Below are positions 44,452 through 47,867 of a DNA stretch of 64,000 nucleotides, piece by piece. The number at the start of each line of letters is the position of its first letter. The first letter of the stretch is position 1. A program made the translations under genes and the position numbers. Location: the NCBI GenBank assembly GCA_001874305.1, contig MPCU01000014.1:1-64000 (forward strand), in the 5' to 3' direction. Source of the DNA: Bacteriovorax sp. MedPE-SWde (GTDB lineage Bacteria; Bdellovibrionota; Bacteriovoracia; Bacteriovoracales; Bacteriovoracaceae). Below the pieces are notes generated by a model. That model was given only the letters and a program-made list of their open reading frames with translations, ran no database searches and was not told where the DNA came from.

Positions 44452-45054
44452 CTATAAATCTGCTAAACGCTTCGCTTCAATCTTTAACTCAATCTCGACT
44501 TCTTCACCAACAACAGGCCCGGCCTCAATTACATCATTCCATTTTAAACCAAAATCTGATCTATTAATTGAAGTCTTCGCCTTAAATGCAACCCTTTTAA
44601 CATCATAAGCTTCAACGGTTCCTAAGAACTTTGACTTAAGAGTAACCTCTTTTTTTACACCAGCAATTTCCAGTGTTCCAACAATATTAAATTTCTTCCC
44701 CTTAATGTCAGTAATTTTCTTAGACTTAAAAGTCACACTTGGAAATTTCTTAACATCAAAAAAGTCAGCACTTCTTAAATGCTTATCTCTTTTAGAGTTT
44801 GCTGTGTTAATAGATTTAGCGGATATTTTCACATCAACTTTTAAGCTCTTCACAGATTTTGGATTAAAATCTAATGAACCACTAAAGGCATCAAATGAGC
44901 CCTCTACAGAACTAATAACAAGGTGATCTATTTCAAAACCAACTTTAGAGTGGGCCGTATCCACAGTCCACTTCTCAGAAACTGACTTATCCTTTGCATA
45001 AGAGAAATTAAAATTCAAAGCGCATGCAACAACTAACAATAATATCTTCTTCAT
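44452..45054 (-). CDS. YceI-family periplasmic protein
   Basis: Signal peptide; WTVDTAHSKVGFEIDHL...GSFDAFSGSLDF; RDKHLRSADFFDVKKFPSVTFKSKKI. Confidence 0.92.
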   Translation of the reverse strand: MKKILLLVVACALNFNFSYAKDKSVSEKWTVDTAHSKVGFEIDHLVISSVEGSFDAFSGSLDFNPKSVKSLKVDVKISAKSINTANSKRDKHLRSADFFDVKKFPSVTFKSKKITDIKGKKFNIVGTLEIAGVKKEVTLKSKFLGTVEAYDVKRVAFKAKTSINRSDFGLKWNDVIEAGPVVGEEVEIELKIEAKRLADL

Positions 45055-45062
45055 AATATCTC

Positions 45063-45632
45063 CTATTTAAGAGAGTAGGCCTTACCTATGAGTAAACCCT
45101 TCTCAACATATATTTGTACGTGAACACCTGAAATATCAGATTCTTTAATAAGCCCTTTTCGACTTTCAAACTCTTTTGGAACTGGTACTTGATAAACAGT
45201 GTAGCGAGTCCCAACTGTATCTTTATATTGTAACTGGGCCGCTGTTACTCCCTGAATGGAACAGTACCTGGCACCAACTAAGCTCTTATCACTCGTATAT
45301 GTTGAGTTTATAATTGCAAAGTCGAGTCTTGATAATTTTGAACTGATAGCAAAGAGGTTACTAGTCTCAATCTCAGATGGCATATTCTTAATATGGTTCT
45401 TTACTACTTCATGTAGAATATTATCTTCTAATGATCTCGTGACCTGAGGGAAGCCCACAAGTACAACAGCAAACAATATAGAAAGTGTTGCAAAGCCAGT
45501 CACAAAGATATTCCAGGAAAATAAAGGCCTAGACGTTTTACCTTCCAAAGACTGGAGCTTTTCTAATCTCTCATTGGACAACTCAATTGAAGAGTAATGA
45601 TCTCTAACTTTACTTTTAAAATCATTCATCAT
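45063..45632 (-). CDS. Putative single-TM anti-sigma factor
   Basis: Overlaps ECF sigma stop by 11 nt; one TM (IFVTGFATLSILFAVVLVGF) with extracytoplasmic C-terminal domain; no obvious ZAS zinc motif. Confidence 0.6.
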   Translation of the reverse strand: MMNDFKSKVRDHYSSIELSNERLEKLQSLEGKTSRPLFSWNIFVTGFATLSILFAVVLVGFPQVTRSLEDNILHEVVKNHIKNMPSEIETSNLFAISSKLSRLDFAIINSTYTSDKSLVGARYCSIQGVTAAQLQYKDTVGTRYTVYQVPVPKEFESRKGLIKESDISGVHVQIYVEKGLLIGKAYSLK

Positions 45633-46089
45633 TACCTCCCTTGTTCAACACTTTTAGTATTCGTTTCTTAAAATTGTGAATTCTCGTTAGTATAGTTCCT
45701 TTAGAAACTTCTAACTGCTTAGCAATCTCACTGTAACTCATTCCTTCATAGGCCCAGAGAAATAAGATTTCACGTTCTTTTGAGTTACAATGATCTAAAA
45801 CAACTTTAGCATCATACTTCTCAAGACCTTGCCCAAAGTCTTCTACTTCAAGCTCAACCTCTTCATCACTAAACTCAAGTCTCGAGTCACTTCTGATAGT
45901 ATTAACATATTCATTCTTTATCATTCTCATTATGTAGCGTCGGGGATATTGAATTTCAATCTGCTCCGACTTTACTAAGAATTTCTCGATTGAGGTATGT
46001 AGTACGTCATAACCAATATTTTCACATCCACAAATAGAAATGGAATATCGATAGAGATCGTTCAACTCTCCCCTGCTAAATATATTCAT
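45622..46089 (-). CDS. ECF-type RNA polymerase sigma factor
   Basis: Region 2-like YPRRYIMRMIKNEYVNTIRSD and region 4 LDHCNSKEREILFLWAYEGMSYSEIAKQLEVSKGTILTRIHNFKKRI. Confidence 0.85.
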   Translation of the reverse strand: MNIFSRGELNDLYRYSISICGCENIGYDVLHTSIEKFLVKSEQIEIQYPRRYIMRMIKNEYVNTIRSDSRLEFSDEEVELEVEDFGQGLEKYDAKVVLDHCNSKEREILFLWAYEGMSYSEIAKQLEVSKGTILTRIHNFKKRILKVLNKGGNDE

Positions 46090-46562
46090 TTAAGACAACT
46101 CGCCGACAAGTAGGAATCCCCCTGCTCATCTTTTAAAATTGATATTGTCTCCATTATATCTTCATCTATTTCAATATTGGATAATTCTTTTTCATTTATT
46201 AACTTACCCCAAAAATCAAGTATTCCAAATGGAAGCTCAATTGATTTTGAAGATTGCTCAAACCAAAAGAAGTCTAGTTTTGCCAAATGTTTAATGTATC
46301 CCATTTCTTCGAGCTCATTTCTACTAGAGAGGTAATCTGCGAAGTCTTGTCCATACATATCAAGGTTGGGGCTTTCGGCCTTAGCAAGTCTTACAAATTG
46401 ATCTATAAAGAACTTAAAATTATCGACGCCAAGAACCTTTTCACAGGAGAGAAAGACTTTCTCAATTTGTGTAAAATGAGAATTGTAATAATTTCTCTGA
46501 TAGACATTAGTCAGATCATTAAGCTTTAAAATATCGTCATAGAATGATCTAGGCAGGTGCAT
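46086..46562 (-). CDS. DUF2063/BufC-like partner protein of MNIO
   Basis: Start at 46562 (MHLPRSFYDDI) preferred; SCEKVLGVDNFKFFIDQFVRLAKAESPNLDMYGQDFADYLSS, YIKHLAKLDFFWF pattern; overlaps MNIO stop by 14 nt. Confidence 0.7.
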   Translation of the reverse strand: MHLPRSFYDDILKLNDLTNVYQRNYYNSHFTQIEKVFLSCEKVLGVDNFKFFIDQFVRLAKAESPNLDMYGQDFADYLSSRNELEEMGYIKHLAKLDFFWFEQSSKSIELPFGILDFWGKLINEKELSNIEIDEDIMETISILKDEQGDSYLSASCLK

Positions 46563-47367
46563 AGAGCATCTCCTCGATTTGTACTCTCTCTTTGATAAAC
46601 TCTCCAAAAGTAGGAAGATTATTATCTCTCTCATATACTATTGGACAATCACCCAGAACAGCTTCGGCCCTTTTCAAGAGCGTCCTTACCGATTCATTTA
46701 CAGAACTACCATGAGTATCAACATAGATCCCATCAATAATCTCTGCACCAGCTATATGTATTTCTTTAACCCTGTCGTGATTTATTTTCTTAAGAAAATT
46801 TTCACTACAAATCCCATAGTTCATTTCATTCACCCAAATATTATTAAGATCAAAGAGAATATGACAGTCTGCCAATTCTGCGAGTTGATTAATAAACTCA
46901 TATTCCTTCATTTCGGATTCTTCAAACTGATGATAGTACGAAAGATTCTCAACAAGTATCTGCCTCTTTAAGATATTCTGAATTTCATCAATCTTATTAG
47001 CAGTAGACTTAATAATCGAGTGACTAAAAGGATGTGGAAGAAGATCATGAAAGTAGTTTCCATCTAAAGCTTGCACGCTTAAATGGTCAGAGATTTGAAA
47101 TGGATTAAACCTCTCACTTAAACTCTTTATCGAGTCTATATATTTTGAATCTATTTTGTCATCACTACATAAGTTCATTCCTACGCAGTGAAATGAAATA
47201 GGATATAACTCTCTTACCTTCTCTAGTTTTTTATGATGAGGGCCAAAGGAGAGCCAGTTATCAGCAATAACTTCTACAAAAGGAAGGTTTGGTTTCTTTT
47301 CTAGTAGCTCATCAATATAATCTAGGCGCAGATTAATACCTACGCCAGCAAGAGAGTTATCAATCAT
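46549..47367 (-). CDS. bufB: DUF692 family multinuclear non-heme iron-dependent oxidase (MNIO, BufB-like)
   Basis: AGVGINLRLDYIDELLE, SFHCVGMNL, ISDHLSV, VENLSYYHQ, LFDLNNIWVNEMNYGI, VKEIHIAGAE, VDTHGSSV, YERDNNLPTFGE. Confidence 0.9.
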   Translation of the reverse strand: MIDNSLAGVGINLRLDYIDELLEKKPNLPFVEVIADNWLSFGPHHKKLEKVRELYPISFHCVGMNLCSDDKIDSKYIDSIKSLSERFNPFQISDHLSVQALDGNYFHDLLPHPFSHSIIKSTANKIDEIQNILKRQILVENLSYYHQFEESEMKEYEFINQLAELADCHILFDLNNIWVNEMNYGICSENFLKKINHDRVKEIHIAGAEIIDGIYVDTHGSSVNESVRTLLKRAEAVLGDCPIVYERDNNLPTFGEFIKERVQIEEMLYAPA

Positions 47368-47642
47368 TACTTAATCGTTTTCTTTTTGTAGACAACACCA
47401 CCGGCGATCTTTTCACATACACCTTGAGGAACATAAACCCATTCCTTCTTATCATTGTCTTTAACTGCCTGATTTGCACAATCATGACCATTTGCTCCAC
47501 AGTCATTTGCACCTTTCTTTGCAATACCCTTACACTTTACAATAGTGTCACCGCTTTTCGCCCACTTTGGTGCTGCTTGAGCTTCACCAGTTGTTAATAC
47601 AATTCCTGCTACTGCTGCTAAAAATAATGGTGCTTTCTTCAT
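47367..47642 (-). CDS. bufA: DUF2282-like (BufA1-type) signal-peptide-bearing precursor peptide, four Cys in core
   Basis: MKKAPLFLAAVAGIVLTTGEAQA signal; core KCKGIAKKGANDCGANGHDCANQAVKDNDKKEWVYVPQGVCEKIAGG; SD ggag upstream of 47642; TAATG overlap with bufB. Confidence 0.88.
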   Translation of the reverse strand: MKKAPLFLAAVAGIVLTTGEAQAAPKWAKSGDTIVKCKGIAKKGANDCGANGHDCANQAVKDNDKKEWVYVPQGVCEKIAGGVVYKKKTIK

Positions 47643-47867
47643 AATTTTTCTCCGTGTTAAAAGCTTTCTCATATATACGACGTATCAGAGACCTAAATGA
47701 TTTTTTATTTTTTTAGGTACTTTACAAAAACGTGTCATTTCAGCCACATAGATCATTAATTCTTTTATTTATTCTGTAGATATGTGTATATCACTATCTG
47801 CTTGTTACAAAATTATTGAAAAAAGATTTAAATAGAACATGTACAAACATAGGTCTATAATCGGCCT

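Follow-up and report, generated by a model that had tools for sequence, protein, structure and literature searches.

A bufferin-1 operon in Bacteriovorax that may be controlled by its own ECF sigma factor and a putative membrane anti-sigma factor

Bufferins, which form a large RiPP family, bind copper. The first-pass annotation of the DNA analysed here, a 64,000-nucleotide stretch of contig MPCU01000014.1 of Bacteriovorax sp. MedPE-SWde (hereafter the window), had placed a bufferin-type locus at 46086-47642, formed by a precursor gene, a DUF692 enzyme and a DUF2063-like partner. The three named genes were all found, but the extent was too short, since genes for a sigma factor, a putative anti-sigma factor and a YceI-family protein follow on the same strand. 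The interpretation as a bufferin locus was sound and, at the same time, incomplete, having missed these three genes, the putative promoter and the shortening of the partner. The features, in order of transcription, are as follows.

47676..47706, minus strand: putative promoter of the ECF type for the operon, AAAAAATCATTTAGGTCTCTGATACGTCGTA, whose end lies 33 nt upstream of the bufA ATG; its -35-like half is degenerate.
47367..47642, minus strand: bufA, 91-aa bufferin-1 precursor; PF10048 (DUF2282), E 1.2e-18; aligned with ten relatives.
46549..47367, minus strand: bufB, MNIO enzyme (PF05114), 272 aa, E 1.8e-80; BufB is the best NCBIfam model; 3BWW, E 1.2e-42.
46086..46562, minus strand: bufC, short DUF2063 partner, 158 aa, ending within the RRE domain; PF09836, E 9.3e-11; aligned with 31 relatives; model pLDDT 85.
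45622..46089, minus strand: ECF sigma factor, 155 aa; TIGR02937, E 1.9e-12; Sigma70_r4_2, E 8.6e-9; 4-nt overlap with bufC.
45063..45632, minus strand: putative anti-sigma factor, 189 aa, with one TM helix and an extracytoplasmic domain bearing invariant His80 and Cys124 (GxRYCSxQG).
44452..45054, minus strand: YceI-family exported protein, 200 aa; PF04264, E 1.5e-48; accessory.

Our best reading, to which we give a probability of about 0.6, is that a periplasm-sensing sigma switch autoregulates a copper-buffering bufferin-1 operon, and the six genes bufA, bufB, bufC, sigma, putative anti-sigma and yceI probably form this single, self-regulated unit. The gene families, the close packing, the conserved gene order and the shared promoter type are established at the level of the sequence.

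The three family assignments made for the bufferin core all exceeded the Pfam cut-offs, and the refuting condition set at sequence level by the first-pass annotation, a precursor lacking any DUF2282 hit, did not apply. The DUF2282 match of the precursor (67.3 bits against a cut-off of 22.4) lies far beyond chance, the enzyme belongs to the DUF692 (MNIO) family as proposed, and the DUF2063-like partner (E 9e-11, 42.3 bits against a cut-off of 27.2) overlaps the end of the enzyme gene. The 91-aa peptide carries a Sec-type signal peptide at approximately residues 1-23, read by eye from a KK pair, a hydrophobic stretch and AQA-A, from which its predicted periplasmic location follows. Its four cysteines (C37, C48, C55 and C76) were invariant in the alignment of 10 DUF2282 proteins of the phylum. 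A ribosome-site-like GGAGA precedes the bufA ATG, and a longer start at 47672 was rejected on ribosome-site and overlap grounds; the coupling of bufA to bufB by a TAATG overlap was borne out by the sequence. The closest NCBIfam model for the enzyme was BufB, at 266 bits, under the equivalog cut-off of 310. BufB retains the DLNN and VDTHG motifs (N174/N175, D217 and H219), aligned with 3BWW, which we read as the counterparts of N175, D242 and H244 of HvfB, residues essential for its activity (PMC13419390). The genome contains one MNIO gene and one DUF2282 gene.

In published bufferin-1 the modification falls on the two central cysteines and a disulfide joins the outer pair, and Buf1 of Caulobacter protects against copper (PMC12452194); by analogy with these relatives, BufA would carry thiooxazoles and bind copper. 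The bufferin core is of the known kind, and it is the regulator and the short partner that make the cluster a variant. Among other precursors of the collection, orphan DUF2282 genes that have neither an MNIO gene next to them nor the promoter motif described below were seen at L057:6876-7196, L058:6236-6556, L059:7053-7367 and L060:1049-1360. In this family of bacteria, BufA2-like precursors with seeming lipoprotein signal peptides (e.g. LAAGC, by eye) were seen in L011, L015, L016, L019 and L020, only the last of which was confirmed by NCBIfam.

The likely start of bufC is at 46562 (158 aa); a start at 46634, giving a 182-aa ORF, lies deep inside bufB and was rejected on ribosome-site and overlap grounds. 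When aligned with its relatives, BufC of the window stopped short of the final part of the RRE, and its model comprises a helical DUF2063 domain, one helix and one beta hairpin. The closest relevant folds, TglI and NGO1945, were weak matches, and a PDB sequence search with the partner-protein profile gave chance matches only. To our knowledge, this BufC is shorter than every partner known to work. Short partners of 104-182 aa were found in seven of the eight bufferin-1 clusters checked in Bdellovibrionota, window included (window 158, G004 159, G036 104, G019 161, G274 182, G122 160 and G275 172 aa), the eighth having 261 aa (G065). Partners in other MNIO clusters of the same families measured 216-305 aa, mostly 245-280, and those at the best 80 of the 141 loci described below were nearly all of 244-306 aa, usually about 255. 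The full-length DUF2063-RRE partner (PME-type 1, about 250-260 aa) that goes with Buf1 is represented in the window by its DUF2063 domain and not by its length; classified as published, that is, by the precursor, bufABC is nonetheless a bufferin-1 (Buf1) cluster, in a variant form. According to the published rule, Sec-exported precursors accompany full PME-type 1 partners (PMC12452194), and the Bdellovibrionota bufferin-1 clade departs from this rule as far as length is concerned. PME-type 2 partners are likewise short, with a truncated RRE (PMC12452194), but BufC of the window differs from them in matching Pfam DUF2063, by which PME-type 1 is recognised, and in serving a Sec-exported precursor.

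A partner of this length might mean that the cluster is decayed or non-modifying, so that BufC could not support the enzyme and BufA would be an unmodified Cys peptide or inactive. The absence of the end of the RRE domain, the dependence of HvfB activity on HvfC (PMC13419390) and the bufA genes of G012, which have no adjacent MNIO gene, agree with this view. However, all reading frames are open, the relative G004 of the same genus keeps all three genes (bufA, bufB and bufC at 79, 55 and 42% identity to the window), and other MNIO groups commonly have short partners (PMC12452194). Because the related clusters and G004 keep the short form, it is conserved and not a fresh truncation; we hold decay to be highly improbable, and the short BufC would be functionally active. 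With natural partners of this size one can test directly whether an MNIO needs the RRE to mature a Sec-exported precursor.

Downstream of bufC, the anti-sigma and sigma genes overlap by 11 nt and a gap of 8 nt separates the former from yceI. Among the neighbours examined, YceI occurs beside bufferin genes in Bdellovibrionota only, and it was rejected as a member of the conserved core, being found at 0 of 80 loci (the best 80 of 141, with a one-sequence profile). Within Bdellovibrionota, YceI genes repeatedly adjoin both bufferin-1 and bufferin-2 clusters (window 44452-45054; L078:2797-3396; L013, L019, L020 and L077); the published survey of MNIO clusters has no mention of YceI (PMC12452194).

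The 189-aa protein is laid out as a short N-terminal part, a single TM helix and an extracytoplasmic domain (model mean pLDDT 91), and it gave no Pfam family match. RseB and MucB, which are periplasmic partners of known anti-sigma factors, were the best solved folds for its model, although the likeness is weak (E 0.03, TM 0.33 on the query, about 90 columns); a PDB sequence search with the anti-sigma profile returned chance matches only and matched no solved structure. We take it as a putative anti-sigma factor because of its place behind the sigma gene and this fold likeness, its topology and position being consistent with that function. It has the features of its family: it lies directly behind and overlaps an ECF sigma gene, has one TM helix, and carries GxRYCSxQG and His80. 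The latter residue, which was absent from the search pattern, was invariant in 42 of 42 aligned family members. Cys124 formed part of the pattern used for the contig scan, yet it is kept in the nine members of the phylum found without that pattern; the RYCS motif is likewise kept in those nine and in 15 of the 16 strong gammaproteobacterial members for which a frame was found. Metal sensing through His80 and Cys124 may be proposed from this conservation. Control of the NrsF kind was rejected, as neither the window anti-sigma nor its own genome had an NrsF (PF06532) match. Seven of the 42 family members matched DUF3379 (PF11859) at E <=0.05, with a best value of 2.6e-7, whereas the window protein itself had no match and two members viewed singly fell under the Pfam cut-off; DUF3379 is named in no paper of the literature library searched. 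On these alignments the window protein belongs to a distinct family, distantly like DUF3379.

Anti-sigma relatives were present in 9 of 369 genomes of the phylum sample, each directly behind an ECF sigma gene. In G274 the order bufA-bufB-bufC-sigma-anti is that of the window, while G065 has sigma-anti-(DsbH-like protein)-bufA-bufB-bufC, adjoined by SCO1 and PCuAC copper chaperones; apart from this one, no copper genes were seen beside loci of the pair. G012 shows bufA-sigma-anti, and at three other loci of the phylum a small exported protein, assigned to no family, replaces the bufferin genes. A scan of genome contigs yielded 141 anti-sigma relatives, of which the best 80 were kept and their gene neighbours called with home-made profiles. 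At 42 of these 80, from many genera and mostly Gammaproteobacteria, bufA-bufB-bufC lay directly before the sigma gene; the remainder comprised 10 with partial bufABC, 8 with a small exported protein, 19 with none of these and 1 where no sigma gene was found. In an even sample of 369 gammaproteobacterial genomes, 26 genomes matched the anti-sigma profile, 17 of them strongly, and 101 had DUF2282. Five of the 17 strong matches (G369, G417, G554, G413 and G616) lay within about 3 kb of a DUF2282 gene, or 4 of 16 as the fairer count, given that G369 is the centre of the sample and was picked for having the operon; the pair stands beside a bufferin gene in about 5% of the DUF2282 genomes of this sample. 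Because so few strong matches lie near a DUF2282 gene, the idea of a bufferin-specific anti-sigma was dropped; other cargo genes come under the same switch.

Exported proteins of one family, about 125-150 aa long (KYPDGFHAGVK...TSCADF...YDIDFL...PIVH), replace bufABC before the same sigma/anti-sigma pair and promoter at L056:6897-7280, L067:5324-5701 and L070:5534-5980, and also in L108, L122, L145, L147 and L175-L179; one full-length member scanned gave no Pfam match. A possible third type of cargo was seen in L126 and L132, where genes read as DsbD/CcdA-like and TlpA-like thioredoxins lie upstream of sigma.

The loci of the relatives have in common a promoter of the type TGCAATCAAA-N13-CGTCT. 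The commonest spaced pair in 61 non-redundant upstream regions was GCAA-17-TCGT, present in 27 of them, against 5 to 7 for the commonest pair in five sets of shuffles. Seeded with the consensus seen by eye and fitted with the window left out, a matrix that reads aTGCAATCAAAt......ttcAtTCGTcTta scored above 6 bits in 49 of the 61. With this matrix the window site reached 5.67 bits, ranking 7 of 127,940 positions when both strands of the window are counted, at the right spacing and distance; 1.3% of 600 random stretches of similar length reach this score. The site is also the sole exact match to its pattern in its own genome. Taken alone, it is modest evidence for a promoter, to which the spacing, the distance and the uniqueness of the pattern add. 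Two tests do not depend on the window site, one on genomes whose sigma pair lies on another contig (given below) and one on the even sample of Gammaproteobacteria. In the latter the site was found at 18-33 bits in 9 of the 11 strong loci for which an upstream region was covered, some of the genomes being shared with the training set (L175, L176). No score above -0.5 bits was seen in ten regions upstream of bufferin genes, or of sigma genes next to them, where this pair is lacking. A pattern search for the regulon in the window's own genome gave five one-mismatch sites against three for the control, so that no wider regulon was found by this means, and a scan with sigma-70 promoter and terminator consensus sequences gave no more than shuffles. 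The Caulobacter sigF motif is GTAACC-N16-CGAA (PMC3511200); by eye, no copy was seen near the bufA start, and a GTAACA lies about 165 nt upstream. In G036 and G002 a sigma gene is followed by genes for other membrane proteins, with GTAACA-N16-CGAA upstream (by eye), in the manner of the sigF motif.

The weakness of the site in the window, together with the gene order in G004, could suggest that sigma, anti-sigma and YceI are chance neighbours of bufABC in this genome and have no control over it. In G004 these three genes are missing and the order is rnd - bufABC - maf; in the window they lie between bufC and maf. Against such an accident stand the gene overlaps, the same order at 42 of the best 80 loci (of 141) in many genera, and a promoter common to the loci that is still found before bufA when the pair lies elsewhere: in G275 and in G122, a genome of the same family as the window, bufABC lies on one contig and the sigma pair on another, yet bufA retains the site (17.7 bits in G275, 6.8 bits in G122), bufABC and yceI standing together in the latter. 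We consider mere neighbourhood highly improbable. Compared across these gene orders, bufABC is stable, and the regulator beside it was gained, lost or relocated.

In the autoregulated operon that we favour, the membrane anti-sigma would at rest use its short part in the cytoplasm to bind the sigma factor. Stress in the periplasm, most likely an excess of copper or another thiol-reactive metal, would act on the extracytoplasmic domain, with His80 and Cys124 as candidate ligands; the sigma factor would then be released and transcribe the whole operon, its own gene included, from the site before bufA. BufB and BufC would convert C48 and C55 of BufA to thiooxazoles before Sec export, and the peptide, with a C37-C76 disulfide, would chelate copper in the periplasm.

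The bufferin part of this scheme may be right while the switch senses another metal, oxidants or envelope damage, bufferin being one output. The other cargoes that accompany the same switch, namely the small exported protein and the DsbD-like/TlpA-like genes of L126 and L132, are in line with this, as are the response of Caulobacter sigF to chromium and cadmium (PMC3511200), the control of an MNIO operon by RpoE2 of H. influenzae under HOCl stress (PMC7907618) and the weak resemblance of the sensing domain to the envelope-stress sensors RseB and MucB. However, a His and a Cys that are invariant in the extracytoplasmic domain fit a set of soft-metal ligands, and the copper protection by Buf1 in Caulobacter (PMC12452194) and the copper chaperones adjoining the G065 cluster point to copper; we regard a signal other than copper as rather unlikely.

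In the literature examined, the known control of bufferins is of the SigF/NrsF type, plus RpoE2 for the oxazolin operon. The present locus is a pointer to a distinct sigma/anti-sigma switch of wide distribution. Its promoter can be read, so that its regulon can be found and its signal put to the test in cultured Shewanella. As a tentative proposal, somewhat short of even odds, this would be a second, independent regulator of bufferins, in which an ECF sigma factor and a new kind of anti-sigma sense metal directly by extracytoplasmic His/Cys, and which in Bdellovibrionota drives bufferins whose partner has an incomplete RRE, the precursor being recognised by the DUF2063 domain or by BufB.

Known Buf1 clusters, such as Caulobacter CC3252-CC3257 and Cupriavidus gig, share with the window a DUF2282 precursor with a signal peptide and four Cys, an MNIO enzyme, a DUF2063 partner and a linked ECF sigma/anti-sigma pair (PMC12452194, PMC3511200, PMC10304878). 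The window differs from them in that its operon also contains, further downstream, the sigma and anti-sigma genes and the anti-sigma is not NrsF, in its putative promoter of the TGCAATCAAA-N13-CGTCT type versus GTAACC-N16-CGAA, in a BufC of 158 versus 250-260 aa, and in the presence of YceI and the absence of a DoxX gene. In the published survey, sigma/NrsF genes occur in Buf1 and not in Buf2 clusters (PMC12452194). At L034:6591-9703 (G002, same genus) we observed a BufA2 precursor above the NCBIfam cut-off, an MNIO enzyme and a full-length partner, whose genes immediately follow one for an ECF sigma factor and one for an NrsF-like protein (24 bits, below cut-off); GTAACA-N16-CGAA stands upstream. 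This Buf2 cluster contrasts with the Buf1-only finding of the survey (PMC12452194).

SigF-NrsF of Caulobacter and RpoE7-EcfR7 of Sinorhizobium resemble the window in having an ECF sigma factor and a membrane anti-sigma beside DUF692/DUF2063 genes. Caulobacter NrsF, however, has six TM segments, whereas the window anti-sigma has one and a large extracytoplasmic domain, and the putative promoter is another. Shewanella SO_3552-3550 shows a similar ORF-sigma-anti order (PMC8458880), a likeness in gene order alone. With RseB/MucB and their RseA/MucA, the window protein would share envelope sensing upstream of an ECF sigma factor and shares, weakly, the fold of the sensing domain; it differs from them in that anti-sigma and sensor would be united in one protein, with an invariant His and Cys.
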